Of a stretch of 64,000 nucleotides of DNA, positions 44,759 through 64,000 are shown piece after piece. This stretch comes from Beijerinckiaceae bacterium. GTDB taxonomy: Bacteria; Pseudomonadota; Alphaproteobacteria; Rhizobiales; Beijerinckiaceae. Positions within the stretch are counted from its first letter, which is position 1. Each line of letters begins with the position of its first letter. Under the pieces are notes generated by a model that was not told the DNA's origin, did no database searches, and saw nothing but the letters and a program-made list of their open reading frames with translations. The stretch spans positions 186,001 to 250,000 of the forward strand of contig CANGJJ010000001.1 of the NCBI GenBank assembly GCA_947454485.1. The letters are read 5' to 3'. The position numbers and the translations under genes are program-made.

Positions 44759-45664
44759 TTAGGGCGCCCAGCGCACCTGTCCTGCTGCGCTCACATCAAG
44801 CCCGCCCAGCTCAGCTGCCCGCGTTGCAAAGGCGGTGCTGTGCAGCAGTGATAAAAAGGTTTGCATAGGCGCGCGGTAGCTGTCGCGCTGTCGTATCAGA
44901 AGATCGAAATGCTCTGTGACCAAAGGCACGAATCCCAGGTCCGCCGCTTGGGCGACAGATTGCGTGGCTATGCCAATATCAGCCACGCCCGCGCGAATGG
45001 CTTGGCCGACATCAGGGCCCGTCGGTGCGGTGATTGTGGAGGGCCATTGCCGCGCGCTCAGCCCCTGTGCCTTCATCAAAGCATCGAGAAGTTGCTGCGC
45101 CCCAGCCCCTTTGGGGCGCGTGACGAGGCGCAGGCCTTTATCAGCCGCGTCCCGCACACTGCTAATTCCCGCTGGGTTTCCCTTGGCCACCACCAATCCT
45201 TGTTGGCGTGCTGCAAAATTAATCAGAACGGAATCATAGAGCGCTGGCTCGCGGGCACAGATCGCGACATTGGCATCTGCAGTTGGTTCATCGAGATTGT
45301 GAAAATGAATCGCGGCGGCGATCAGTTCGCCTTTGAGGAAGCGTTGATAGCCAGTCTCACTTCCCTCCGGCAGCATGGCGAGGCCCGCGCGGCTCTCGGC
45401 CAGCGCCCATTGCAGCAGCGGATCATGAGAGCCGCCGACAATCGGGGGCGGTGAAGCGGGAACAAAGCCGGGCGGCTGGGCAAGACCAGCCAACAGCCAG
45501 CGATCAAGATGGGCGCGGGGGAAGAGCCATTTGCCCGAGACCTTGGTGCAGGGAATGCCGCCCGCTGAGACCAGCTCATAAAGCTTGCGCTCGCCCATCC
45601 GCAGATATTCAGCCGCCTCCGCTGTGGTTAGCAGATCCATCCCCGCATTCGTCTGCATATCCAT
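44759..45664 (-). CDS. One-component regulator: excisionase-type HTH plus PBP-like sensor domain
   Basis: Residues ~10-55 (LLTTAEAAEYLRMGERKLYELVSAGGIPCTKVSGKWLFPRAHLDRWL) are an excisionase-type (MerR-like) helix-turn-helix. Residues ~75-301 form a cytoplasmic periplasmic-binding-protein-like domain of the type also fused to MoeA (GSH..., RPKGAGAQQLLDALM, AGVADIGIATQSVAQAADLGFVPLVTEHFDLL). It is divergent from tupBCA by 57 bases, so it very likely controls tungstate or molybdate uptake. The ATG at 45664 is used; ATG 45640 is possible. Confidence 0.85.
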   Translation of the reverse strand: MDMQTNAGMDLLTTAEAAEYLRMGERKLYELVSAGGIPCTKVSGKWLFPRAHLDRWLLAGLAQPPGFVPASPPPIVGGSHDPLLQWALAESRAGLAMLPEGSETGYQRFLKGELIAAAIHFHNLDEPTADANVAICAREPALYDSVLINFAARQQGLVVAKGNPAGISSVRDAADKGLRLVTRPKGAGAQQLLDALMKAQGLSARQWPSTITAPTGPDVGQAIRAGVADIGIATQSVAQAADLGFVPLVTEHFDLLIRQRDSYRAPMQTFLSLLHSTAFATRAAELGGLDVSAAGQVRWAP

Positions 45665-45696
45665 GCATTAATTCCATCTATTGACCTTTGAAGAGG

Positions 45697-45710
45697 AGAT
45701 ACAAATATCT
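45697..45710. promoter_or_regulatory. Dyad AGATA-CAAA-TATCT in the regulator-tupB gap
   Basis: A perfect 5-4-5 inverted repeat, with GAGG and CCTC as partial outer arms, centred in the 57-base divergent gap. TTGACC at 45681-45686 is a candidate -35 for tupB, so a bound regulator would sit at the promoter. Confidence 0.45.
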
Positions 45711-45721
45711 GCACCTCGTCA

Positions 45722-46423
45722 ATGGCGGAGCTGATGGACGCAACCAGTGCCTTTTCCCTGATTTTGGAACGCGATCCGGCCCTGTTTGCCATCGTGGGCC
45801 TGTCGCTATGGGTCAGTCTGAGTGCCACTTTGCTGGCAGGCGCACTGGGCGCGGGGCTTGGCTCTGCGGTGGCCCTGACCCGTTTTCCGGGCCGTCAGGG
45901 CGTGGTCGTGGTGCTCAATGCCCTTATGGGCCTGCCCCCTGTTGTCGTGGGCTTGCTGGTCTATCTGGCACTGTCGCGCTCGGGGCCTCTGGGCCAGTTC
46001 GGCATTCTCTTCACCCCCACCGCCATGATTATCGCGCAGACGATCCTCATCGTGCCGATCATCGCCGCCCTGACGCGTCAGGTGATGGAAGATTTGTGGG
46101 GTGAATATGCTGACGAGTTGAATGCCATGGGCGTCACGCCGTGGCGGCGCATGCGCGTTTTGTTGTGGGATGCCCGCTTTTCGCTCGTCACCATTTTGCT
46201 CGCTGGCTTTGGCCGCGCCGCTGCAGAAGTCGGCGCAGTGATGATTGTGGGCGGCAATATTGATGGCTTCACGCGCGTCATGACGACGACGATTGCTCTG
46301 GAGACCTCCAAAGGCAATCTCCCGCTCGCCATGGGGCTTGGCGTGATTTTGTTGACCATCGTTGTGGCGGTGAACAGTCTGGCTTGGGCTGTGCGTGCAT
46401 GGGCGGAACGTCATGCAGGCTGA
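45722..46423 (+). CDS. tupB: Tungstate ABC transporter permease TupB
   Basis: The 233-residue permease has about five or six spans and the EAA-type motif NAMGVTPWRRMRVLLWDARFSLVTILLAGFGRAAAEVGAVMIVGGNI, close to TupB/WtpB proteins. It is the first gene of tupBCA; the order differs from the usual tupABC. The ATG at 45722 has no good ribosome site, while an ATG at 45734 has GGAG 3 bases upstream, so the start is uncertain by four codons. Confidence 0.9.
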   Translation: MAELMDATSAFSLILERDPALFAIVGLSLWVSLSATLLAGALGAGLGSAVALTRFPGRQGVVVVLNALMGLPPVVVGLLVYLALSRSGPLGQFGILFTPTAMIIAQTILIVPIIAALTRQVMEDLWGEYADELNAMGVTPWRRMRVLLWDARFSLVTILLAGFGRAAAEVGAVMIVGGNIDGFTRVMTTTIALETSKGNLPLAMGLGVILLTIVVAVNSLAWAVRAWAERHAG

Positions 46424-47120
46424 ACCCGTTATCACTCTGTCGAAAGCGCGCCTCGTGATGGGCCAGCGCATGATCTTGCGCGATGTGACCGCCGTGATTG
46501 AGCGGGGCGGCCCAACTGTGTTGCTTGGCCCCAATGGATGCGGCAAGACCTCTTTGCTGAAAGCGATGATGGGGCTTGTATCGCTCACCTCTGGCACTGT
46601 TGATCGCCATGTCGGGCGCGCATCTTTCGTGCTGCAAAAGCCTGTGATGCTGCGTCGCTCTGTCTATGACAATCTTGCTTTTGCGCGGCAGACCGCAGGC
46701 TTGCCTCACAGTGAATCTGTGATGACAGATTTGCTCAATGACTTTAGCCTCACCCATCTGGCCCATGCGCCAGCGCGCCGTCTGTCGGGTGGCGAGCAAC
46801 AACGTTTGGCCATTGCGCGCGCCTTGGCACGCGAGCCAGCCTTGCTCTTTCTGGATGAGCCAACGGCCAGTCTTGATGTCGCCCAAACCCGTTTGGTGGA
46901 AGATCTGATCGCGCGCATCAGTGCGCGGGGTGTGAAGATCATTCTCTCCACTCATGATCTTGGCCAGGCCAAACGTATCGCCGATGACGTCCTGTTTCTG
47001 GTTGAGGGGCAACTTGCAGAACAAGCACCGATGGCCAGTTTTTTTCACGCAGCCCGCAGCTCGCAAGCACGAGCATTTCTTGCTGGTGAGCTTGTTTCAA
47101 TCGACGGAGAAAAGCCATGA
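46413..47120 (+). CDS. tupC: Tungstate ABC transporter ATP-binding protein TupC
   Basis: The 235-residue ATPase has Walker A GPNGCGKTS, signature LSGGEQQRLAIARALA, Walker B LLFLDEPTASLD and STHDLGQAKRIADDVLFL. It lacks the C-terminal TOBE/Mop domain of ModC, as expected for TupC. The start overlaps tupB by 11 bases and the end overlaps tupA by 4 bases. Confidence 0.92.
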   Translation: MQAEPVITLSKARLVMGQRMILRDVTAVIERGGPTVLLGPNGCGKTSLLKAMMGLVSLTSGTVDRHVGRASFVLQKPVMLRRSVYDNLAFARQTAGLPHSESVMTDLLNDFSLTHLAHAPARRLSGGEQQRLAIARALAREPALLFLDEPTASLDVAQTRLVEDLIARISARGVKIILSTHDLGQAKRIADDVLFLVEGQLAEQAPMASFFHAARSSQARAFLAGELVSIDGEKP

Positions 47121-47944
47121 AACTCGGGAAAGCTCTTCTTGTGTCCGCCTTTCTGACAGCGGTCGTTTTGCCTGCTTCAGCGCAGGATAACTTCATCACC
47201 GTGGCCTCGACAACATCGACGCAGGACTCGGGCCTCTTCGGCCATATTCTGCCGCTCTTCAAAGCGCGCACCGGCATTGATGTGAAAGTGATTGCGCAGG
47301 GCACGGGTCAAGCCCTCGACACAGCGCGTCGTGGTGATGCAGATGTGGTCTTTGTTCACGCGCGCGCCGCCGAAGAGAAATTCCTCGCAGAAGGCTTTGG
47401 CGTGAAGCGCTTCGATGTCATGTATAATGATTTCGTTCTCATTGGACCCAAGAACGATCCCGCGCAGCTCGCGGGCGGTCAGGATGTCGTTGCAGCTTTG
47501 CGTCGCCTTTATGAAAAGACGCAGCCCTTCGTCTCGCGTGGCGATAAATCAGGCACGCATCAGGCAGAACTTGATTTGTGGAAGGTCGCAGGTCTTGATC
47601 CTGCCGCGACCAAACCCTCTTGGTATCGCGAAATAGGTCAAGGCATGGGGGCGGCCTTGAACACGGCGAGTGCAATGGGCGCTTATGTTTTGGCAGATCG
47701 TGGCACATGGCTCGGCTTCAAAAACAAAGAGGCGCTGAAGATTGTCGTTGAAGGTGATCGCCGCATGTTCAACCAATATGGGATCATGCTGGTCAATCCG
47801 GCCAAACATTCCCATGTGAAGGCGCAGCTTGGACAAACTTTCGTGAACTGGATTGTGTCCCAAGAGGGCCAAGACGCTATTCGCTCTTACAAGATCATGG
47901 GCGAGCAGCTTTTCTTCCCCAACGCCACCGCCACGACGCTCTGA
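47117..47944 (+). CDS. tupA: Tungstate-binding periplasmic protein TupA
   Basis: TupA binds tungstate with very high selectivity over molybdate in characterised members. The 275-residue product has a signal peptide (KALLVSAFLTAVVLPASAQ) and the diagnostic oxyanion motif ASTTSTQDSGLF right after the cleavage site, followed by DADVVFVHA, FVSRGDKSGTHQAELDLW and AYVLADRGTW. These distinguish TupA from ModA and WtpA. Translational overlap with tupC. Confidence 0.94.
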   Translation: MKLGKALLVSAFLTAVVLPASAQDNFITVASTTSTQDSGLFGHILPLFKARTGIDVKVIAQGTGQALDTARRGDADVVFVHARAAEEKFLAEGFGVKRFDVMYNDFVLIGPKNDPAQLAGGQDVVAALRRLYEKTQPFVSRGDKSGTHQAELDLWKVAGLDPAATKPSWYREIGQGMGAALNTASAMGAYVLADRGTWLGFKNKEALKIVVEGDRRMFNQYGIMLVNPAKHSHVKAQLGQTFVNWIVSQEGQDAIRSYKIMGEQLFFPNATATTL

Positions 47945-47984
47945 GGCGCTTGCCTTTCACAAGGTCAAGCGGCACATAAGGCAC

Positions 47985-49109
47985 ATGGTAGATCATGTCG
48001 CCCAAGGTCCGCAGCAGATCGGCACATTGACCGCGCTGGATACAGCGCGGGATTGGCTGTTGTCTGGGCTCAAGCTGCCACAGGCGCGGCTCTGTTCGCT
48101 GAGCGAGGCGCAAGGCATGGTCACTGCAGCGCGCAGTCTCGCGCCCCATGTGCTTCCTGTAACAGATATCGCGCTGCGTGATGGATGGGCCCTTTCGTCT
48201 ATGTCCATTGCGGGTGCCTCTACTTATTCGCCCGTCGCATTGATACGTGCGCCTGTCGCGGTCTGCATTGGCGAGCCGATCCCTTTAGAGTGTGACTGCG
48301 TCGTTGAGCCCTCCAGCATCGAATGGATTGGATCCATAGCGCAGGCTGTCGCCGAAGCGCTTCCCGGTGAAGGTCTGCGGCGCAAGGGCGAGGATGCAAA
48401 AAGCGGCGATCTGTTGATCGAGCAAGGGCAGATGATTGGGCCTTTGCAGCAATTGGTCTTGCAGGCGGCGGGTCTGTTGGAGATCAATATCCGGCAACCG
48501 CGCATCCTTCTGTTGAATTCTGGTGCTGCCGATACAACAACGCAGATGCTCGCGCGCTTAATCAAAGAGCGCGGCGGCTTGCCCTTGATGGATGATTTTA
48601 GGGGTGAGCTTGCGCGGCTCATTACCAAACATGCAGCAGATCTTGTCCTGTTGATTGGTGGCACTGGGTCTGGGAAGAGCGATCACAGCGTGGATTGGCT
48701 GCGCGCACAGGGCGATGTCTTTTGTCATGGGCTGGCGTTGGAGCCGGGGCGCACCGCCGCTCTTGCTCGCATGTCCTCATGTCCTGTTGTTGCTGTTCCG
48801 GGCCTGCCTGCCCAGGCTTTGGGGCTGTGGTTTGGGCTGCTGGCCTGTGTTCATGATCATCTGACAGGTTTCAAAGCGCCGCGCACGACGGGGGCTTTGG
48901 CCGCGAAGATTGCCTCGCGCGTCGGCGTGACTGAAGTTGCTCTGCTTGAGCAACAAGGCACGCAATTTGTTCCTCTTGCCATTGGTGATATGCCGCTGCG
49001 ACATCTGTCGCGCGCCACGCATCTGTTGCTCATTGAGGCGCGTAGTGAAGGCTATGGCGCGGGCCAGACAATTGAGCCTGTCGCCTTGAGGCATTTTGCA
49101 GATGAATGA
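47985..49109 (+). CDS. Divergent MoeA-like protein
   Basis: The 374-residue product is MoeA-like in outline but degenerate: DIALRDGWALS replaces the NSAMDGYA-type motif, LECDCVVEPSS replaces GADAVV, EGLRRKGEDAKSGDLLI is well kept, LLNSGAADT replaces the TGNEL motif, GGTGSGKSDHSVDWL recalls GG-x-S-x-G-x-x-D, and EPGRTAALA and VPGLPAQAL replace PGKP and LPG-P-S. MoeA inserts Mo (or W) into adenylylated molybdopterin; loss of several residues suggests altered or regulatory function. ATG at 47985 follows AAGGC; the end overlaps the next gene by 8 bases. Confidence 0.75.
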   Translation: MVDHVAQGPQQIGTLTALDTARDWLLSGLKLPQARLCSLSEAQGMVTAARSLAPHVLPVTDIALRDGWALSSMSIAGASTYSPVALIRAPVAVCIGEPIPLECDCVVEPSSIEWIGSIAQAVAEALPGEGLRRKGEDAKSGDLLIEQGQMIGPLQQLVLQAAGLLEINIRQPRILLLNSGAADTTTQMLARLIKERGGLPLMDDFRGELARLITKHAADLVLLIGGTGSGKSDHSVDWLRAQGDVFCHGLALEPGRTAALARMSSCPVVAVPGLPAQALGLWFGLLACVHDHLTGFKAPRTTGALAAKIASRVGVTEVALLEQQGTQFVPLAIGDMPLRHLSRATHLLLIEARSEGYGAGQTIEPVALRHFADE

Positions 49110-51024
49110 TGCTCTGACCCAAGGCCAGTTTCTCTTGATCCTCTCGCGTGAAGAGGCGATGGCGCGTTTTGACGCGGCTTTGTTTCCGCGCGCAGTTGCA
49201 CAAGAGACCGTGTCCTTGGCCCAATCGCTGGGTCGCACCCTCGCGCAAAATCTACTCGCCCCGATTGATGTGCCCCCCTTTGATCGCTCGAATGTAGATG
49301 GGTTTGCCATTCGTGCAGCTGATGTTGCCAATGCGAGCGAAGCCAATCCCGTTCGCCTCTCCCTCAATGGCGAAGAGATTCATTGCGGCACAGCCCCTCA
49401 GCTGACAGTGGCGTCAGGCAGCGCAACCCCCATTGCAACAGGCGGCCCTCTGCCGCGCGGTGCTGATGCTGTAGTGATGATTGAACATACGCAGCCCCAA
49501 GAGGGCGCGATCCTCGTGCGCCGTGCGGCCAATGCCGGTCAGTTCATCGCCAATGCGGGCTCTGATATGGCGCGTGGTGAATTGGTGTTGCGGGCCGGCG
49601 TGCTCATGGGCGCGCGTGAGATTGGCATGCTGGCGGCTTGCGGCATCGCCTCAGTGACGGTGATGCGCACACCGCGTGTCGCCATTTTGTCGACGGGCAA
49701 TGAGTTGGTGCAAGCGGGTGGCACATTGGCGCCCGCGCAAATCTTTGATGCCAACGGACCGATTATTGCCGCCGCTGTCAGTGAGAATGGCGGTGCACCT
49801 GACTTTCTGGGTGCCATTGTGGACGATGAAGAAGCGCTGGAAGCTGCGATGCGCGACGCGCTGGCGCAAAGCGATATGTTGATCCTGTCTGGCGGCACAT
49901 CCAAAGGCGCGGGCGACCTCACCCATCGCATTCTCGCCCGTTTGGGCAAGCCCGGCATTATCGCCCATGGTGTCGCACTGAAGCCCGGCAAGCCGCTATG
50001 TCTGGCCGTATGTGACGGCAAGCCTGTCGTCATCCTGCCGGGTTTTCCCACATCAGCCATGTTCACTTTTCATGACATGATTGTGCCGGTACTGCGTCGC
50101 ATGGCAGGGCTCGCGCCACGTAGCGATGCGATTTTGCAAGCGCGTTTACCGGTTCGCGTCGCCTCTGAATTGGGCCGCACGGAATTTGTCATGGTCGCTT
50201 TGGTGCAAGGCGATGAGGGCCTGCTTGCCTATCCAACTGGCAAAGGCTCAGGCGCGATCACCTCTTTCACACAGGCCGACGGTTTCGTGCGGATCGAGGC
50301 TTTGGCTGATCATGCGGCAGCTGGCAGTACTGTCGATGTGACTTTGTTCACGCCGCATCTGCGTGTGCCAGATCTCACCATCATCGGTAGTCACTGCACA
50401 GGACTTGATATTGTGACCGCGGAAATATCGCGCGCCAATATCAGCGCGCGCACCATTGCGGTTGGTAGTCTGGGTGGTCTGGCTGCCGCCAAGCGCGGCG
50501 AATGTGATTTTGCGCCTATTCATCTGTTTGATGAAGCCAGCGAAACTTATAATCGCGCTGTCCTCAGCGATGAGATGGAGTTGGTGGAAGGTTGGCGGCG
50601 TATGCAGGGCATCGTCTATCGCAAAGACGATCAGCGTTTCGCGGGTCTTGATGCCAAAGCCGCTGTCGCCAAAGCGCTCAGCGATCCGCTGTGCCTCATG
50701 GTCAATCGCAATCAAGGCGCGGGCACGCGTATTTTGCTCGAGCGTTTACTCAACGGCGCGCGGCCTGATGGCTATTGGAATCAACCTAAATCACATAATG
50801 CTGTTGCAGCGGCGGTTGCGCAGAGGCGGGCCGATTGGGGCATGACGATTGCCCCTGTTGCGCAGGCCTATGATCTGGGCTTCTTGCCTTTTGCCGAAGA
50901 GCATTATGACTTTGCTCTGGTGCGTGCGCGCAAAGTAAGGCCCGCTGTGCAAGCTTTCTTGCAGGCTTTGGCCTCAGAGCCTGTCCGCACGGCTCTCACG
51001 CGCGCAGGCTTTCGTCCCGCTTAA
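49102..51024 (+). CDS. moeA: Molybdopterin molybdenumtransferase MoeA fused to a PBP-like domain
   Basis: Residues 1-~415 are a full Moe[61 protein letters not shown] and LPGFPTSAM. Residues ~430-640 are a PBP-like domain ([48 protein letters not shown]). This fusion is known in other bacteria and archaea and is thought to bind oxyanion or cofactor precursors. Total 640 residues. It overlaps the divergent MoeA by 8 bases and meets mobA tail to tail, sharing the TTAA stop bases. Confidence 0.92.
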
Positions 51025-51626
51025 GGGTGGAGCGCAGCTAAGCGCTCGGCTTCAGCCAAATCATCGGGCGTGTTGGCATTGAAGAAGGGGTCGACGGGCT
51101 TAAGCGGCCACTCAACCGAGGTCAGATTGTAGCGCGCTGTCCAGCGATCGATCTTGTGCAGATTTTCTTCACTCAAAGCGTGGCGCAGATCTTCGCGCAA
51201 AGCGACTTTCCAAAGACCAATGACGGGATGAGCTTGGCCCCCCGATGTTGCCACGACAAGATCAGCTGATTGGGCCAAGCGCGCATCATCAAAGCGCGCC
51301 ACAAGATCGCGCGGCAGAAAAGGGCAATCGCCCGGAACGCTCACGACCCATTCGATATTATGCTGCGCAGCCCAATCCAGTCCTGCCAATATGCCAGCCA
51401 GCGGGCCTGCAAAATCAGGGATACTGTCAGCGACGACGGGCAGATGAAAGTCTGCAAAGCGTCCTGCATCACCATTGGCATTGATGATGAGTGCATCACA
51501 TTGCGGGGTCAGGCGATCAATCACATGGGTGAGGATCGGCTTGCCCGCGATACTGCGCATGGTCTTGTCACCCCCGCCCATACGGCGGGCAAGGCCACCT
51601 GCCAGAATGGTGCAGAGCGCGCGCAT
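51021..51626 (-). CDS. mobA: Molybdenum cofactor guanylyltransferase MobA
   Basis: MobA links GMP to Mo-molybdopterin to make the bis-MGD cofactor used by formate dehydrogenases. The 201-residue product has the nucleotide-binding [16 protein letters not shown], the [18 protein letters not shown] segment, [13 protein letters not shown] and the [11 protein letters not shown]-terminal motif. The ATG at 51626 overlaps the stop of the polyferredoxin gene (TGATG), so the two are co-translated. Confidence 0.95.
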
Positions 51627-53659
51627 CAATTTTCCACCGGATCAGTGCCGCCTGCATCACGCGCGCGCAGATAATCTTCCGTTGTCATGACAGGCGGGCG
51701 TGTCTTGGCTTCATAAGGATCAAAGCCCTCATTCATCACGGCCTCAACGCGGCAATCTTCGCACATACGCACCACATCAATGCGCTTGGCATTGGTGCCG
51801 GTGAACATCCAATGTTTGTCAGACAATTTGCCAACAATTTTATTGATCATGCTCGTTGTGGCGAAGGGCTTGGCGCAGTTGATGCAGTGGAAAGGCTCCT
51901 CCTCTTTCAACGTGCGGATCGGTGCATTCCATGCGCGGAAGTCGATCTGCGGCTTCAGCGTAATGACTTTCTCCGGGCAAGTCGCAGCACATAGGCCGCA
52001 TTGCACACAGGCGCTCTCTGTAAAGCGCAGCATCGGATATTCAGGATTGTCGCTCATCGCGCCGGTGGGGCAGGCGGTCACACAAGAATGGCAGAGTGTG
52101 CAGCCATCCGTCTTGACCTCAACCGTGCCAAAAGGCGCGCCAGCTGCCAAAGGCACCACATCAACCGGTGTCGGTGCGGCATGATGCAATTCGCGGAAGG
52201 TGATCTCCAGCACCGAGCGCTTGGGACCGCGCGGCTCGAACTTTGCGGGCGCAGGCGAGGGCGTGCCTGGCACGAAGCTGTCCAAGGCATCGCGCAAAGC
52301 ATCAGGATCATCTGTCTCGACGCGTTGCACGAGATTGCTGCCAAAGCCCAGAGCGCTCACAACCTCATTGGTGAGGGCGCTGATATTGTGCAGGCCTGAA
52401 ATGTCGTGCTTGGGCTTGGCGCGCAGCAAAAGCACAAAGCCTGTCGCACCGAATGCAAAAGCACCGGCGAGAACTTCGGGGCCAATCTGTGTAACTTCAT
52501 TGACGCGCAGTGGCAGCACATGAGCGGGCAGGCCCTTGCCAAAACGGGCCAGCGCATCGAGCAGCGGCGTGCCATGTTCGCCATCATGCAGCAGGACGAC
52601 AGGCTTTTGTCCGCCAGCGGCCAGATAAGTGCTCAGCAGCGTTTGCAGGCGGCGCATCACAGCGTCAGCAGGCGGCAATGCATAGCTCGCAGCACCGGTG
52701 GGGCAGACAGAGGCGCAGGCACCGCAGCCCGCGCAGACCTCTGCATTGATCGCAACATGGTCGCCATTGGGCGTTATCGCGCCGGTGGGGCATAGATCGA
52801 GGCAACGCGTGCAGCCGGTGATCTTTGAGCGCGAATGGGCGCAGAGGGATTCGGTGAAGGTCACATAGCGCGGCTTGTCGAATGTGCCGACAAGTTGCGC
52901 CGCATCGGCCAAAGCGCGTTCAAAGCCCGCGCGGTCACGCGGATCAGCGCGCAGATAGCCCGGCCTCAGCTCATGCGCGGGGAACAAAGGCTGCCCGCCG
53001 GTCAGATCCAGAATAATATCGCAGTGAGACACAGCGCCATTGCTGGCGGCACCAAAGACCAATGTGTCGCGCGACGAAGGAGCGGCGAGTGCTGTCTCAT
53101 CAATGGTGAGTTCGAAAGCGCCCAGATGGCCTTTGGCATTGCGCGCATGGCCTTTGATGATGGGGAATTCGCGCACGGCTGGCGGCGTGACATCGCCGGG
53201 ACGCGATAGCATCACCGTCACATCGAGCCTGTCGGCCAAGAGGCGGCCAGCTTCAAGCGCGCTCTCATCGCGCCCATAGATCATGATGACGCCTTCGCTC
53301 TCCAGACTGACAACCGAGAGGGGGGGCATCTCCTGACGGGCGGCGGCAATGAGCGCCGCGCTCTTGGGGCCAGATTGCGCGGCCTGATCGGACCAGCCCG
53401 ACAATTCGCGGATATTGGCAAATGTGACCGACTCGGTGACGCCGAGATCTTCGGCAACTTCAGCGAAGAGCGCGCTCTCTTGCGTACACGCGATTGTGAT
53501 CGGCCCGCCAGCGTTCAGCGCCTCTTTGACGAGGTCGAGTTCGGTACCACAAAGCTGATCGGCCCGCGTGATCCGCCCACCGCAGCCCTTGGCGAGCGCG
53601 GCCTCGTCGAGCGGCATGGTCTTCTCGCAGGAACAAACAAGCAGCCGGGGCTCGCGCAT
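51626..53659 (-). CDS. Multi-cluster 4Fe-4S protein of the formate dehydrogenase locus
   Basis: The 677-residue protein carries four classic 4Fe-4S motifs: CTRCLDLCP and [12 protein letters not shown] (~290-330), [12 protein letters not shown] and [12 protein letters not shown] (~530-575). Extra Cys pairs are in [13 protein letters not shown]...[11 protein letters not shown] and CEDCRVEA. Between the pairs lies a ~150-residue domain that resembles the hydrogenase/CoxF-type FrhD region. It probably moves electrons or helps FDH maturation, since it is divergent from the FDH accessory genes; its exact role is not known to me. ATG at 53659 is used. Confidence 0.82.
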
Positions 53660-58201: not shown

Positions 58202-61168
58202 ATGCTGACGAAACGACGGGACTCTGTCTCCTCGCGTGCCCGGATGTCTGGCCTGGCCGCAGGCCTTGCCTCGGGTGTGCTTGATCGCCGTTCATTCCTG
58301 CGTCGCTCCGGCTTGACGGCAGGTGCTGTTGCCGCTGTTGGCAGCTTCTCGCTGGGCAGCGTGCGCAAGGCGCAGGCCGGCCCCGTGGCTGCAGGCGTCA
58401 AGATCGAAACCAAGAAGAACATCTGCACGCATTGCTCGGTGGGCTGTTCGGTCATCGCCGAAGTGCAGAATGGTGTTTGGGTGGGTCAGGAGCCCGCATG
58501 GGATAGCCCGATCAATCGCGGGTCCCATTGCGCCAAGGGCGCATCGGTGCGCGAACTCGTTCATGGAGATCGCCGCCTGAAATATCCTATGAAGCTGGTT
58601 GACGGTCAGTGGATCCGTATCAGCTGGGATCAGGCCCTCGACGAAGTCACCGCGAAGATGACCGAGATCCGCAACCGCTCGGGTGCAGACTCAGTCTATT
58701 TCCTCGGCTCAGCGAAATTCTCGAACGAAGGGGCTTACCTCTTCCGTAAGCTCGCTGCCTTCTGGGGCACCAACTCTGTCGACCATCAGGCGCGTATCTG
58801 CCACTCCACGACGGTGGCGGGCGTTGCCAATACTTGGGGTTATGGCGCGCAGACCAATAGCTATAACGATATTCGCAACTCCAAGACGATTGTCTTCATG
58901 GGTTCGAATGCGGCTGAAGCTCATCCTGTCTCGCTGCAGCATGTGCTGATCGGCAAAGAGCAGAACCGCGCGAATATGATCGTGCTCGATCCGCGCTTCA
59001 CGCGCACGGCCGCTCATGCGACCGAATATGTGCGCTTCCGGTCTGGCACCGATATCGCGGTGATCTGGGGCATGCTCTATCACATCTTCCAAAATGGTTG
59101 GGAGGATAAGAGCTTCATCCAGCAGCGCGTCTATGGCATGGATCAGGTGCGCGCTGAATGTATGAAATGGACGCCTGAAGAGGTTGAGCGCGTGACCGGC
59201 ATTCCCGGCGCGCAGCTCAAGAAGGTCGCAGAGACCTTCGCCAAAGAGCGTCCCTCGACCTTCATTTGGTGCATGGGCGGCACGCAGCACACGGTCGGTA
59301 CGGCCAATGTGCGCGCTTATTGCAACCTGCTGCTGGCCACCGGCAATGTCGGTGTCTTTGGTGGCGGCGCCAACATCTTCCGTGGCCATTGCAACGTGCA
59401 GGGCGCAACCGACTTTGGTTTGGATATCGGCAATCTGCCGCTCTATTACGGCCTCGTCGAAGGCGCTTGGCGTCATTGGGCGCGTGTGTGGGATGTTCCT
59501 TACGACTATTTCCAGTCGCGCTTCGACGAAGTGCCGGCCAAGGCGGGCCGTCCTGCGCGCACGCGCAAGGAGAGCATGGAACTGCCGGGCATTCCCTCGA
59601 CCCGTTGGTTCGATGCCACGACCTTCAATCCCGATGATGTCGATCAGCGTGATGCGCTGAAGGCGATGATCATCTTCGGTCACGGTGGCAACACGGTGCC
59701 GCGTATGCCCGACATGGTGAAGGCGCTGGAGAAGCTTGAGCTGCTGCTCGTGGCTGATCCCCATCCCACCACTTTTGCAGCCATCTCTGGCCGCAAGAAT
59801 GGCACTTATCTCTTGCCCATGTGCACACAGTTCGAAACCTCGGGTTCGCGCACAGCCTCCAATCGTTCGGTGCAGTGGGGCGAGAAGGTCGTCAATCCGA
59901 TCTTTGAGTCGAAGGACGACTATGAGGTCATCTTCCGCATGGCCGAGAAGCTTGGTTTCGCCGATCAGATGTTCAAGAACATCAAGGTCGAGGACAAGCG
60001 TCCGTTGCCTGAAGATGTGTTGCGTGAAATCAATCGCGGTGGTTGGTCGACCGGCTATTCGGGTCAAAGCCCGGAACGCCTGAAGGCGCATATGAAGAAC
60101 CAGGACAAGTTTGATCTGGTGACTTTGCGCGCCAAGGCCGATGTGCCGGAGGTGGGCGGTGACTATTACGGCCTGCCTTGGCCGTGCTGGGGTACGCCTG
60201 AGATCAAACATCCCGGCACACATACGCTCTACAACACCAATCTTCATGTGAAGGATGGTGGCGGCACATTCCGTGCGCGCTTCGGTGTCGTCTATCAGGA
60301 GAAGCAGGCCGACGGTTCTGTGAAGGACGTCAATCTGCTGGCGGAAGGCTCTTACAGTCTCGGCTCTGACATTAAGGACGGCTATCCCGAATTCACGCTC
60401 GGCGTGTTGAAGAAGCTGGGTTGGGACAGCGAGCTGACTGAGAGCGAGTTGGCCACGATCAACCGCATCGGCGGCGCCAATCCTGACACTGTCGGTTGGG
60501 CGATTGATCTGTCGGGCGGCATCATTCGCGTCTGTCTGGATCATGGCGTTCTGCCTTACGGCAATGCCAAGGCGCGTGCGGTTGCCTGGAACCTGCCCGA
60601 TCCTGTGCCGGTCCATCGCGAGCCGATCTATACGCCGCGCGCAGATCTGGTCGCGAAATATCCGACCCGGCCGGATGGCCGCCAGTTCCGCATGCCCAAT
60701 GTTGGCCTCGCCATTCAAAAGGCTGCGGTGGAGAAGGGTGTTGCGAAGCAATTCCCCATCATCCTCACCTCTGGCCGTCTTGTTGAATATGAAGGTGGTG
60801 GTGAAGAGACCCGCTCGAACAAATGGCTCGCGGAATTGCAGCAAGACATGTTCGTTGAGGTTAATCCTGCTGATGCGGCTGAGCGCGGCATCAAGGATGG
60901 TGGTTGGGTGTGGGTCTCTGGCCCCGAGAACAACGCCAAGACCCGCGTCAAGGCCTTGGTCACTGATCGCGTTGGCAAGGGCGTTGCCTTCATGCCGTTC
61001 CACTTCGGTGGTTGGTATCAAGGCGTCGACCAGCGCGCCAACTATCCCAAGGGCACCGATCCAATCGTGCTCGGTGAAAGCGTGAACACTGTCACGACCT
61101 ATGGCTATGACCCTGTGACGGGCATGCACGAAGGTAAAGTGACGCTTTGTCAGATCGCGGCTGCGTGA
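58202..61168 (+). CDS. fdhA: Formate dehydrogenase catalytic subunit alpha (Mo/W-bis-MGD)
   Basis: The 988-residue enzyme oxidises formate to CO2 at a Mo- or W-bis-MGD centre, in the periplasm after Tat export (LDRRSFLRRSG, Arg29-Arg30). A [4Fe-4S] cluster is bound by Cys75, Cys78, Cys82 and Cys110, followed by the Lys of CAKG. The metal ligand is Cys200 in DHQARICHSTTV where E. coli FdnG has selenocysteine. Lys/His partners and molydopterin-binding segments are all present to the C terminus. AGGGAG precedes the ATG. Length is typical. Confidence 0.95.
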   Translation: MLTKRRDSVSSRARMSGLAAGLASGVLDRRSFLRRSGLTAGAVAAVGSFSLGSVRKAQAGPVAAGVKIETKKNICTHCSVGCSVIAEVQNGVWVGQEPAWDSPINRGSHCAKGASVRELVHGDRRLKYPMKLVDGQWIRISWDQALDEVTAKMTEIRNRSGADSVYFLGSAKFSNEGAYLFRKLAAFWGTNSVDHQARICHSTTVAGVANTWGYGAQTNSYNDIRNSKTIVFMGSNAAEAHPVSLQHVLIGKEQNRANMIVLDPRFTRTAAHATEYVRFRSGTDIAVIWGMLYHIFQNGWEDKSFIQQRVYGMDQVRAECMKWTPEEVERVTGIPGAQLKKVAETFAKERPSTFIWCMGGTQHTVGTANVRAYCNLLLATGNVGVFGGGANIFRGHCNVQGATDFGLDIGNLPLYYGLVEGAWRHWARVWDVPYDYFQSRFDEVPAKAGRPARTRKESMELPGIPSTRWFDATTFNPDDVDQRDALKAMIIFGHGGNTVPRMPDMVKALEKLELLLVADPHPTTFAAISGRKNGTYLLPMCTQFETSGSRTASNRSVQWGEKVVNPIFESKDDYEVIFRMAEKLGFADQMFKNIKVEDKRPLPEDVLREINRGGWSTGYSGQSPERLKAHMKNQDKFDLVTLRAKADVPEVGGDYYGLPWPCWGTPEIKHPGTHTLYNTNLHVKDGGGTFRARFGVVYQEKQADGSVKDVNLLAEGSYSLGSDIKDGYPEFTLGVLKKLGWDSELTESELATINRIGGANPDTVGWAIDLSGGIIRVCLDHGVLPYGNAKARAVAWNLPDPVPVHREPIYTPRADLVAKYPTRPDGRQFRMPNVGLAIQKAAVEKGVAKQFPIILTSGRLVEYEGGGEETRSNKWLAELQQDMFVEVNPADAAERGIKDGGWVWVSGPENNAKTRVKALVTDRVGKGVAFMPFHFGGWYQGVDQRANYPKGTDPIVLGESVNTVTTYGYDPVTGMHEGKVTLCQIAAA

Positions 61169-61179
61169 GGGAGACACAC

Positions 61180-61776
61180 ATGGCTCGCATGAAATTCCTT
61201 TGTGACGCTGATCGCTGCATTGAATGCAACGCTTGCGTCACCGCCTGTAAGAACGAACATGAAGTGCCGTGGGGCATCAATCGCCGCCGCGTCGTGACCA
61301 TCAATGACGGCAAGCCGGGTGAGCGTTCAGTCTCCATGGCCTGCATGCATTGCACGGATGCGCCTTGCGCCGCCGTTTGCCCTGTCTCGTGTTTCTACAC
61401 GACGGTCGACAAGGTCGTGCTGCACTCCAAGGATCTGTGCATCGGCTGCGGCTATTGCTTCTATGCGTGCCCCTTCGGCGCGCCGCAATATCCAAAGGTC
61501 GGTAATTTTGGTTCGCGCGGCAAGATGGATAAGTGCACCTATTGCGCAGGCGGTCCCGAAGCAGACTTCTCGACCGTTGAATATGAGAAATATGGCCGCA
61601 ACCGTTTGGCTGAGGGCAAGCTGCCACTCTGCGCAGAAATGTGCTCCACCAAGTCGCTTCTGGCAGGTGACGGCGATATCATTGCCTCCATCTACAAAGA
61701 GCGCGTGATGAAGCGCGGCTATGGGTCGGGTGCTTGGGGCTGGAAGACAGCCTACAAAGAAACCGTCAACGTCTAA
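61180..61776 (+). CDS. fdhB: Formate dehydrogenase iron-sulfur subunit beta
   Basis: The 198-residue subunit moves electrons from FdhA to the cytochrome b subunit through four [4Fe-4S] clusters. The cysteine motifs are CIECNACVTACK, CMHCTDAPCAAVCP, CIGCGYCFYACPFGAPQYP and CTYC...LCAEMC. It lacks the C-terminal membrane anchor of E. coli FdnH. The ATG at 61180 is preceded by GAGGGAG; the gene starts 11 bases after fdhA. No signal peptide, so it is exported bound to FdhA. Confidence 0.95.
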   Translation: MARMKFLCDADRCIECNACVTACKNEHEVPWGINRRRVVTINDGKPGERSVSMACMHCTDAPCAAVCPVSCFYTTVDKVVLHSKDLCIGCGYCFYACPFGAPQYPKVGNFGSRGKMDKCTYCAGGPEADFSTVEYEKYGRNRLAEGKLPLCAEMCSTKSLLAGDGDIIASIYKERVMKRGYGSGAWGWKTAYKETVNV

Positions 61777-61801
61777 CGCAGCAACTTTGAAAGGTCGTGC
61801 G

Positions 61802-62800
61802 ATGAACGCATGGGTCAAATCCTTGGTTGCTGCTGCAGCTTTTGCTGTCGTCGCATCCATGCCTGCGCAAGCGCAGAACTACAATAACTTCAACCCGACC
61901 AAAGAGTCGGTGAAGGAAGAGCAACTGCTCAACGCCCTCAAGGGCGATGCGCATGTGGCTGGCCGCATCTCGATCCCCGATCAGAAGGCCGCCAATCTCA
62001 TTCAGCCGCAGGGTCAGCAGTGGCGTGCCTTCCACGAGCAGCGCTTGCCGCTGATCGGCGGCGCTGCCATTCTGGGCATGCTCGTTGCGCTTATCTTGTT
62101 CTATCTGGTACGCGGGCGTATCCGCATCGAAAATGGCTTCTCGGGCATCACCATCACGCGCTTTGCGACGCTGGATCGCTTTGCGCATTGGTTGACGGCG
62201 GGCTGCTTCATCGTGCTGGCTTTGTCGGGTCTCAACCTTTCCTTCGGGCGCATGTTGATCCTGCCTTACTTTGGGCCGGAGAGCTTTGCGACGCTCACCG
62301 CCTGGGGCAAGCTGGCGCATAATTATCTCGCCTTCCCCTTCATGCTGGGCTTGGCTTTGATGTTCGTTTTGTGGGTGAAGGACAATATCCCGAACCATAT
62401 CGACCTTGAGTGGATGAAGCAGGGCGGTGGTCTCTTCTCCAAGGGCCATCATCCCCCGGCCAAGCGCTTCAACGCGGGCCAGAAGGTCGTGTTCTGGATC
62501 GTCATGTGCGGTGGCATTGTGATGTCACTCTCGGGCTGGTTCCTGCTCTTCCCCTATCTCGCGGGTATCGCAGATTTGCAGCTCTACACGACCATCCATG
62601 CTGTTTTGGCTGTGGCCTTTGTCGCCGCCATGCTCGCCCATGCCTATATTGGTTCGGTGGGTATGGAGGGCGCTTTTGACGCCATGGGCAATGGTGAGGT
62701 CGACATCAACTGGGCGCGTGAGCATCACTCGCTCTGGGTCGAAGAGGAGCAGGCCAAGGCGCGCGCCTCTGCTGGCTCGAAGGCTGTGCCGGCTGAGTAA
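61802..62800 (+). CDS. fdhC: Formate dehydrogenase cytochrome b subunit gamma
   Basis: The 332-residue subunit anchors the enzyme in the membrane and passes electrons to quinone. It has a signal peptide (ASMPAQAQ) and an extracytoplasmic leader, then a single helix (~85-104), and a di-haem cytochrome b561-like domain of four helices with candidate haem histidines in RFAHWLTAG, WGKLAHNYLAFP and YTTIHAVLAVAFVAAMLAHAYIG. It starts 25 bases after fdhB and ends with a disordered tail. Confidence 0.93.
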   Translation: MNAWVKSLVAAAAFAVVASMPAQAQNYNNFNPTKESVKEEQLLNALKGDAHVAGRISIPDQKAANLIQPQGQQWRAFHEQRLPLIGGAAILGMLVALILFYLVRGRIRIENGFSGITITRFATLDRFAHWLTAGCFIVLALSGLNLSFGRMLILPYFGPESFATLTAWGKLAHNYLAFPFMLGLALMFVLWVKDNIPNHIDLEWMKQGGGLFSKGHHPPAKRFNAGQKVVFWIVMCGGIVMSLSGWFLLFPYLAGIADLQLYTTIHAVLAVAFVAAMLAHAYIGSVGMEGAFDAMGNGEVDINWAREHHSLWVEEEQAKARASAGSKAVPAE

Positions 62801-62875: not shown

Positions 62876-63400
62876 ATGAAGGTCATTGGCATTGCGGGCT
62901 GGAGCGGAGCGGGCAAGACGACCTTGCTGACGCGCCTCATTCCGCAGCTGACGGGTCAGGGCCTCAAGGTCTCGACCATCAAGCACGCGCACCACGCTTT
63001 TGATGTGGATGTGCCGGGCAAGGATTCCTGGCGCCATCGCGAGGCAGGGGCTAGCGAAGTGCTGGTCTCGTCGCGCAATCGCTTTGCCTTGATGCATGAA
63101 TTGCGCGGCGATGCGGAGCCCACTTTGCTTGAGCTTTTGGGCAAGCTTTCGTCGGTCGATCTCGTCATCATCGAGGGCTTCAAATTCGATGCCCATCCCA
63201 AGATCGAAGTGCATCGGCTGGCCAATGAGAAGCCTCTGCTCCATCCGCAAGATCCCCATATCGTCGCTATCGCCAGCGATGCTGTGACCCAGGCGCCGAT
63301 CCCTTGCGTTCATCTGGATGACGTGGCCGCCATTAGCGCTATGATCCTCGCCAAGGCAGCGCCGCTTGCGGCTCTGCGCGCTACTCTCAGCGGAGCCTGA
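62876..63400 (+). CDS. mobB: Molybdopterin-guanine dinucleotide biosynthesis protein MobB
   Basis: MobB is a GTP-binding partner of MobA in MGD synthesis. The 174-residue product has the P-loop GWSGAGKTTLL, VSTIKHAHHAFDVDVPGKDSWRHREAGA and LVIIEGFKFDAHPKIEVHR, all MobB signatures. Its start follows GAGGGTTGG. It ends 3 bases before moeA, as is common in alphaproteobacteria. Confidence 0.95.
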   Translation: MKVIGIAGWSGAGKTTLLTRLIPQLTGQGLKVSTIKHAHHAFDVDVPGKDSWRHREAGASEVLVSSRNRFALMHELRGDAEPTLLELLGKLSSVDLVIIEGFKFDAHPKIEVHRLANEKPLLHPQDPHIVAIASDAVTQAPIPCVHLDDVAAISAMILAKAAPLAALRATLSGA

Positions 63401-63403
63401 TCC

Positions 63404-64000
63404 ATGGTGCAGCTCTCCAACGACTGCTTTGCCTTTGGTGGAAAGCTCATGTCGGTCGATGAGGGCGTGGCATTGATCTCGGCGCGCCTGTCGGCGGTCG
63501 AGGGTGTTGAGCACTTGCCTTTGTCGAACTGCGACAACCGCATTCTTGCAGATAATCTCTTCGCCCCCGTTCCGTTGCCGCTCTTCGCCAATTCGGCTGT
63601 CGATGGCTATGCGCTGCGTGGTGCTGATCTGCCCGTGGATGCGCCCAAATCTGTCATCGTCTCCGCGCGTGTTCAGGCAGGTTCGGTGGCTGAGCCTATC
63701 GTGCCCAATACAGCCGTGCGCATTTTCACCGGCGCGCCCATGCCGCCGGGCGCTGACACGGTCTTCATGCAAGAAGATGTCGAGCTTGATGGTGAGCGCG
63801 TCATTCTGCCCGCAGGATTGAAGCCCGGCGCGAATATGCGGCCTGCGGGCGAAGATGTGGCCAAGGGCGCGCTGGCTCTTGCTGGCGGCACGCGCCTTCG
63901 TCCGCAACATATCGCATTGGCCGCAGCCCTCGGGCAGACGCATCTGAGCGTGCGGCGTCCCATTCGTGTGGCGATCTTCTCAACCGGCAATGAGCTTGTC
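63404..64000 (+). CDS. moeA: Molybdopterin molybdenumtransferase MoeA (cut by the window end)
   Basis: The first 199 residues are visible and the gene runs off the window. The canonical motifs are NSAVDGYALRG, PPGADTVFMQEDV, GANMRPAGEDVAKG and FSTGNELV at the edge. This looks like the regular housekeeping MoeA, the third MoeA-type protein in this window. It starts 3 bases after mobB. Confidence 0.9.
   Translation, partial: MVQLSNDCFAFGGKLMSVDEGVALISARLSAVEGVEHLPLSNCDNRILADNLFAPVPLPLFANSAVDGYALRGADLPVDAPKSVIVSARVQAGSVAEPIVPNTAVRIFTGAPMPPGADTVFMQEDVELDGERVILPAGLKPGANMRPAGEDVAKGALALAGGTRLRPQHIALAAALGQTHLSVRRPIRVAIFSTGNELV

Follow-up and report, generated by a model that had tools for sequence, protein, structure and literature searches.

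The locus described here raises the question of whether one intracellular metal signal could serve both the uptake of tungstate and the loading of a cofactor, at a time when the cytoplasmic choice of tungsten (W) over its near twin molybdenum (Mo) is still poorly understood. It lies on a stretch of 64,000 nt (contig CANGJJ010000001.1, positions 186,001-250,000 of the forward strand; hereafter the window) of Beijerinckiaceae bacterium GCA_947454485.1, which encodes a regulator with a helix-turn-helix (HTH) domain and a MoeA fused to a periplasmic-binding-protein (PBP)-like domain (MoeA-PBP). An earlier reading of the sequence (the original prediction) held that both proteins share a C-terminal PBP-like domain, through which one ligand would control tupBCA transcription and steer metal insertion. 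The two were found to carry homologous versions of one PBP-like domain (PF12727). Neither is a novel kind of protein; what recurs and informs is their joint arrangement in one locus. With modest confidence, we consider it rather probable that a TaoR-type, tungstate-sensing regulator of tupBCA is here combined with a MoeA-PBP possessing a related oxyanion pocket, within an island for tungsten uptake and maturation of a formate dehydrogenase (FDH3). The coordinates and reading frames originally given for the two proteins were confirmed, and their features are as follows.

44759-45664, minus strand: regulator of 301 amino acids (aa) with HTH_17 and PF12727 domains (Pfam), TaoR-type architecture, mean predicted local distance difference test (pLDDT) of the model 93.3
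45491-45634, minus strand: HTH_17 (excisionase-like) DNA-binding domain, regulator residues 11-58 (PF12728, E 2.6e-15)
44843-45394, minus strand: PF12727 PBP-like domain, regulator residues 91-274 (Pfam E 5.5e-43)
49102-51024, plus strand: MoeA-PBP fusion of 640 aa (PRK14498 model 769.4 bits, cut-off 534)
50434-50970, plus strand: PF12727 PBP-like domain, MoeA-PBP residues 445-623 (Pfam E 7.5e-45)

Comparison with Pfam placed PF12727 at the C-terminus of both proteins, with 146.8 bits (cut-off 27) in the regulator and following the MoeA_N, MoCF and MoeA_C domains in the MoeA fusion; the HTH_17 domain of the regulator scored 56.8 bits (PF12728, cut-off 27). The two proteins share 30% identity over 214 aa (BLASTP, E 5e-11), and profile-profile comparison of the regulators (75 sequences) with MoeA-PBP (43 sequences) gave a probability of 99.6% (E 1.9e-24). 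The same two profiles matched that of TupA (22 sequences) with probabilities of just 20% and 17% (hhalign, E about 1e-3). The strength of the first match and the weakness of the second indicate that the relation between the two domains is specific. The claim of a common C-terminal domain is thus upheld at a level far beyond chance, and profile searches, which by the original prediction would have refuted it had they assigned the domains to unrelated families, placed both in PF12727. Among the motifs it had quoted, GSH and GAG-x3-LL are present in both proteins, but the run VAQAADLGFxPLxEHxD is exact in the regulator only, the MoeA version being different.

Alignment of the two families (45 column pairs compared) identified columns with conservation of 90% or more in each family, namely (regulator/MoeA-PBP) G78/G429, S79/S430, G101-S102/G455-S456, G105/G459, H120/H474, N132/N484, R153/R500, G156/G503, R183/R536, G188/G541, D229/D578, A238/A587, L243/L592, F245/F594, P247/P596, E251/E600 and D254/D603. 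The H80/H431 column contains His in 76% of regulators and 90% of MoeA-PBP, and the GAG motif is less firm in the regulators (first G 68%, A 86%).

The remainder of the locus was found to consist of the following features.

45672-45683, plus strand: candidate operator TTCCATCTATTG, overlapping a -35-like TTGACC (45681-45686), its pattern kept chiefly in close relatives
45697-45710, plus strand: palindrome AGATACAAATATCT of the original prediction, present in the window and not conserved in relatives
45722-46423, plus strand: tupB-like permease (ABC_perm1 244 bits, cut-off 100; TupB model 151.4 bits, below its cut-off of 320)
46395-47120, plus strand: tupC-like ATPase, a later start within the open reading frame being possible (PF00005 E 8.6e-27)
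47117-47944, plus strand: tupA-like binding protein with the Arg of SRGDxSGT kept (TupA model 234.8 bits, below its cut-off of 400)
47985-49109, plus strand: degenerate MoeA paralogue (MoeA_S), overlapping the MoeA-PBP gene (Pfam MoeA_N and MoCF, no MoeA_C)
51021-51629, minus strand: mobA (TIGR02665 217.9 bits, cut-off 151.85)
58202-62800, plus strand: FDH3 alpha (58202-61168), beta (61147-61776) and gamma (61721-62800) (FDH3_beta 335 bits, cut-off 240; gamma 149.6 bits, cut-off 115.85)
62876-63400, plus strand: mobB (TIGR00176 158.9 bits, cut-off 76.2), the single MobB match in the genome
63404-64000, plus strand: moeA1-like insertase, truncated at the window end (PF03453 149.7 bits at C1:249449-249934)

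This gene content supports the description of the locus as an island for tungstate-type uptake and FDH3 maturation. As the tupA and tupB products score below their NCBIfam equivalog cut-offs, tungstate is proposed as the transporter substrate from motif and context. Profile searches of the genome identified four MoeA, three of them in the window (degenerate, MoeA-PBP and moeA1-like) and the fourth on another contig, together with a ModA gene and an adjoining two-TOBE protein elsewhere, suggesting that molybdate is probably under its own control. A search of the genome with AFOR_N for an aldehyde:ferredoxin oxidoreductase as a tungsten client gave no match. The mobB-moeA1 pair downstream of the FDH3 genes (62876-64000) resembles the tungsten-specific pair of Methylorubrum extorquens.

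Which ligand the shared domain might bind was approached by alignment with the window TupA. R183/R536 aligns with TupA R141, the Arg of SRGDxSGT, which is invariant in the 22 aligned TupA sequences; H120/H474 aligns with TupA H81, T542 of MoeA-PBP with T147, and the GSH motif with the TTS region. The hhalign register of these motifs agrees, but weakly. In Desulfovibrio alaskensis TupA the same Arg is R118, where the R118E variant no longer binds either anion and R118K no longer binds molybdate, and TupA H81 is probably His59 of that study, as judged by motif (PMC5517513). Since conserved PF12727 residues fall on residues of the TupA oxyanion site, an oxyanion ligand is favoured. A search with the regulator model (Foldseek) returned folds of type II periplasmic-binding proteins and LysR-type regulators (E from about 1e-9), which informs on fold and not on ligand, and the 50 matches listed for the MoeA-PBP model were MoeA, gephyrin and Cnx1 chains only.

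The regulator is classified as TaoR-type by its architecture (HTH_17 with PF12727) and its Mo/W gene context. TaoR is reportedly an HTH plus PBP-like regulator of tungsten genes, known here through papers citing the work of Rajeev et al. in 2019 (Environ Microbiol 21:784). The gene is divergent from tupB in the window, and regulators face tupB in all 19 loci where they are at least 61% identical and in 39 of the 75 family entries from genomes other than that of the window. To examine the intervening sequence, 68 unique regulator-tupB intergenic regions were taken from 78 loci (20 close relatives, window included, 36 middle and 12 distant). The pattern TTC[CT][AG]N2-5TTG was found in 15/20 close, 12/36 middle and 4/12 distant relatives (shuffle means 0.48, 0.73 and 0.49), and a stricter form ending in the -35-like TTGAC in 14/20, 0/36 and 0/12, respectively; both patterns were drawn after the intergenic sequences had been viewed. 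The element at 45672-45683 is therefore a candidate operator, strong in close relatives only. The palindrome at 45697-45710, which had been put forward as the promoter site, was rejected as an operator: its sequence exists in the window, yet the AGATA-N4-TATCT pattern occurred in 1/20 close regions (the window itself), 0/36 middle and 0/12 distant, and thus in no relative.

A tree of 153 non-redundant PF12727 domains (FastTree) was found to contain separate groups of HTH_17 regulators (92 and a broken copy), MoeA-PBP (42 and a contig-end piece, including the Cetobacterium protein) and LysR-HTH regulators (15). Local supports were 0.96 for 91 of the regulators with the broken copy, 0.999 for 41 MoeA-PBP with the fragment and 0.60 for the LysR-type group, with values of 0.51-0.82 at the nodes just outside the regulator and MoeA-PBP groups. 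Two domains (L053 and L055) were placed near the MoeA-PBP group with weak support, the former associated with HTH_17 by Pfam. The separate clades suggest that the domain was probably joined to each partner long ago, the locus uniting two old paralogues. Local duplication of PF12727 within the locus was ruled out, as the regulator and MoeA domains lie in separate clades with relatives from many genomes. TaoR-type and MoeA-PBP proteins are published, in line with the earlier statement that PBP-like domains are joined to HTH or MoeA elsewhere. A LysR-type HTH was found instead of HTH_17 in seven of ten PF12727 proteins scanned (L118, L122, L128, L067, L085, L091 and L058), the first three of which face tupB.

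In the family sample (199 genomes, of which the 80 with matches were classified), MoeA-PBP was counted in 46 genomes, a PF12727 regulator in 68 and both in 34, against 15.7 expected; one counted regulator (G423, L250) is a contig-end piece of a MoeA-PBP, giving corrected counts of 47, 67 and 34. Fisher's test, which ignores relatedness, gave p 4e-10 for this co-occurrence, and at genus level (hand-made table of 43 genera) 14 genera have both, 17 MoeA-PBP and 21 the regulator (p 5e-4). The two genes lie within one region in 10 of the 34 genomes having both, window included. PF12727 was further identified in 140/397 genomes of the order sample, with some additional pairs in one place (e.g. L147-L149), in 34/289 of the class sample (at E 1e-15) and in 68/348 of the phylum sample, where many frames outside the class are 340-400 aa long, the length of the LysR-type form. 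At most 8-15 first-look candidates were scored per genome in the family, order, class and phylum counts, so some second copies may have gone unrecorded.

Plasmid pB of Sinorhizobium meliloti LMB1 was found to carry the block known from the window, with the regulator facing tupBCA, the degenerate MoeA and MoeA-PBP, inverted relative to the following 4Fe-4S protein, accessory genes and FDH3, with mobA not listed there. Both matches lie within about 6.5 kb in Mesorhizobium sp. INR15 and on four other Sinorhizobium plasmids. The presence of one domain in the regulator and the insertase of the same locus, cultivable rhizobia included, offers a direct test of one intracellular metal signal for uptake and cofactor loading. 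At two further loci (L150 and L158) the regulator, tupA, degenerate MoeA and MoeA-PBP are present with no adjoining tupB or tupC match by TBLASTN. A predicted CAE beta-lactamase (PLSDB, L181:5738-5989) corresponds to a short hypothetical gene within a formate dehydrogenase cluster and is probably a false call.

Equivalents of the Escherichia coli MoeA residues D59, T100, D142, E188, D228, D259, K275 and K279 are kept in all 43 MoeA-PBP sequences; these active-site positions were taken from titles of Protein Data Bank (PDB) entries, apart from D259 and K275, whose numbering we presume. An unexpected companion is the degenerate MoeA encoded immediately upstream of MoeA-PBP and codirectional with it, the two genes overlapping in the window; the window copy has I, A and E at the positions of E. 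coli T100, E188 and K275. Of 30 aligned degenerate MoeA, 25 retain D59 and 26 retain D142, but just one retains T100 and two E188; there is no K among the 27 residues listed at K275, and several copies have lost part of the MoCF domain. A profile criterion detected this paralogue in 35/45 family loci and 18/22 other large loci, although two of the latter (L020 and L170) seem to be one genome region, so that these are not all independent. Of the ten family loci missed by the profile, eight gave a TBLASTN match to it and two were outside that search; among the four other misses, one has a degenerate MoeA 2 kb away (L171), and at the remaining three its position is occupied by a gene annotated as MoeA or molybdopterin-binding. 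From their work on Desulfovibrio vulgaris, the authors of PMC10102598 infer that the tungsten cofactor of Aor requires both moeA genes, one of which carries PF12727. They describe as not understood why many bacteria carry two moeA-like genes, a question on which the degenerate MoeA may bear. A heterodimer of MoeA-PBP and degenerate MoeA is a guess. We give little credence to the fuller proposal of a supply-and-use circuit with tungstate as its common signal, in which a single domain family would both set tup transcription and load the insertase. The insertase would be such a heterodimer, with one PBP domain feeding its one working active site, apart from the mobB-moeA1 route.

The homology of the domains, their common conserved residues, the separate clades, the co-occurrence and the gene order are observed, whereas the ligand, cytoplasmic sensing of tungstate, the sense in which tupBCA is regulated and the supply of metal to the MoeA active site belong to a mechanism that we infer. 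In this mechanism the cytoplasmic PF12727 domain of the regulator most likely binds tungstate and possibly also molybdate. The regulator would control the divergent tupBCA, probably by occupying the conserved element located at the -35 box of tupB. MoeA-PBP, a predicted MoeA with most known active-site residues in place, would carry a closely related oxyanion pocket that probably serves to capture or concentrate tungstate for insertion, a role of greatest importance when the anion is in short supply.

Several observations weigh against this reading. The TupA and TupB equivalog cut-offs were not reached. Among PF12727 genomes of the class sample, just 3/34 have two matches, and thus the pairing is not general. 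In the displayed stretch of three loci with MoeA-PBP (Methylobacterium radiotolerans, Cetobacterium somerae and Variovorax), no HTH gene of the regulator's type is annotated. The window MoeA-PBP has A150 where E. coli MoeA has Arg 137, and this Arg is not kept in Pyrococcus horikoshii 1uz5 either. The literature examined, as far as its consulted parts extend, reports no ligand for any PF12727 domain, and sequence searches of the PDB gave no convincing solved relative (one match, 1twy, E 0.0099). A single ligand is further called into question by positions 189/190/216, which differ systematically, MoeA-PBP having T542, R543 and H565 where regulators have mostly A/S, Q and E/G. This part of the original prediction is weakened, and the difference favours, as do the separate clades and the LysR-type regulators that match MoeA-PBP at these three positions, an explanation in which the domains are homologous with diverged ligands. 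The regulator would then read the free oxyanion and the MoeA domain a cofactor intermediate, or act as a structural lid, with no common signal. As the core residues H120/H474, R153/R500, R183/R536, D229/D578 and E251/E600 are conserved to at least 90% in both families, we think this unlikely. In M. radiotolerans, a small LysR-type HTH protein without a PBP domain is encoded directly after MoeA-PBP (L179:11923-12411).

Nor is the regulator family confined to tungsten, as 36 of the 75 family entries do not face tupB and one HTH_17-PF12727 regulator (L233, 4092-5237) faces a ModA-type (SBP_bac_11) binding protein. These findings, and the match of Bacillus subtilis to PF12727 among the control genomes, are consistent with a general molybdate/tungstate domain used for whichever metal is present, the locus then not being specifically a tungsten circuit. 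With a TupA-like transporter here, and ModA and the two-TOBE protein separate in the genome, this appears somewhat unlikely. A Pfam scan of 20 neighbouring frames at ten PF12727-regulator loci without tupB assigned no family to 12, several being probably spurious GC-rich frames, and only L233 was informative. A PmbA/TldD-type gene lies near the regulator in two loci without tupB (L226:2627-4231 and L239:2675-4960). The role of MoeA-PBP is questioned by genetics in M. extorquens, where FDH1 tungsten needs moeA1 and mobB, not moeA3 or moeA5, deletion of either of the latter lowering W just modestly (for moeA3, 41 vs 50 U/mg activity and 0.33 vs 0.48 W, described as 'minimal impact'; PMC13197769). 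By synteny with the M. radiotolerans locus, moeA3 is likely to be MoeA-PBP and moeA5 the degenerate MoeA; if so, MoeA-PBP would be unnecessary for FDH1 in that species. The claim that MoeA-PBP steers metal insertion loses ground accordingly, as the FDH1 tungstate insertase is another MoeA (moeA1) with mobB, a pair also present here. It could follow that MoeA-PBP is a redundant spare with a relic PBP domain, moeA1-mobB being the true tungstate insertase. We consider this quite improbable, as eight active-site positions invariant in 43/43 sequences, and many PBP columns too, are not expected of a relic, and inactivation of either D. vulgaris moeA, one with PF12727, leads to chlorate resistance, as does loss of the tungsten enzyme (PMC10102598). 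The joint tungstate circuit of regulator and MoeA-PBP is hence a fair hypothesis from known parts and partly supported, with genetic evidence against its strongest form. No description of the shared domain as one circuit was found in the consulted parts of the literature searched, with Rajeev 2019 covered through citing papers only; the original view of the two-level circuit as undescribed may stand for the joint circuit, but not for its parts, as TaoR and the link of MoeA-PBP with TupA (PMC11733289) are published.

The periplasmic TupA (PMC5517513) is alike in two residues, the Arg of SRGDxSGT and one His, which fall on invariant positions of PF12727, its profile similarity to PF12727 being weak. 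TaoR-like proteins have an HTH of type 17, TaoR being an HTH plus PBP-like regulator of a tungsten enzyme (PMC11980592), and PMC10102598 credits regulation of tupABC to Rajeev 2019. The window regulator likewise combines HTH and PBP-like domains beside tungstate-type transport genes; the TaoR-like proteins of PMC11980592 also carry a TOBE domain, whereas none was found here by Pfam, and the likeness is one of architecture and context. MoeA-PBP resembles the archaeal MoeA1 (PMC11733289; NCBIfam PRK14498) as a MoeA with a C-terminal PBP-like domain in a tup locus. It co-occurs with TupA in 86% of cases, in the same locus in 28%, and metal capture and channelling have been suggested (PMC11733289). 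In the window a degenerate MoeA is encoded before it, and the locus includes a regulator that shares its PBP-like domain; there is no mention of a regulator of this kind in the consulted part of that paper. M. extorquens has the same gene set, moeA5-moeA3-mobB-moeA1 with tupBCA (PMC13197769); although FDH1 was studied there, FDH3 is present here and the gene order differs, the mobB-moeA1 pair is found in both.

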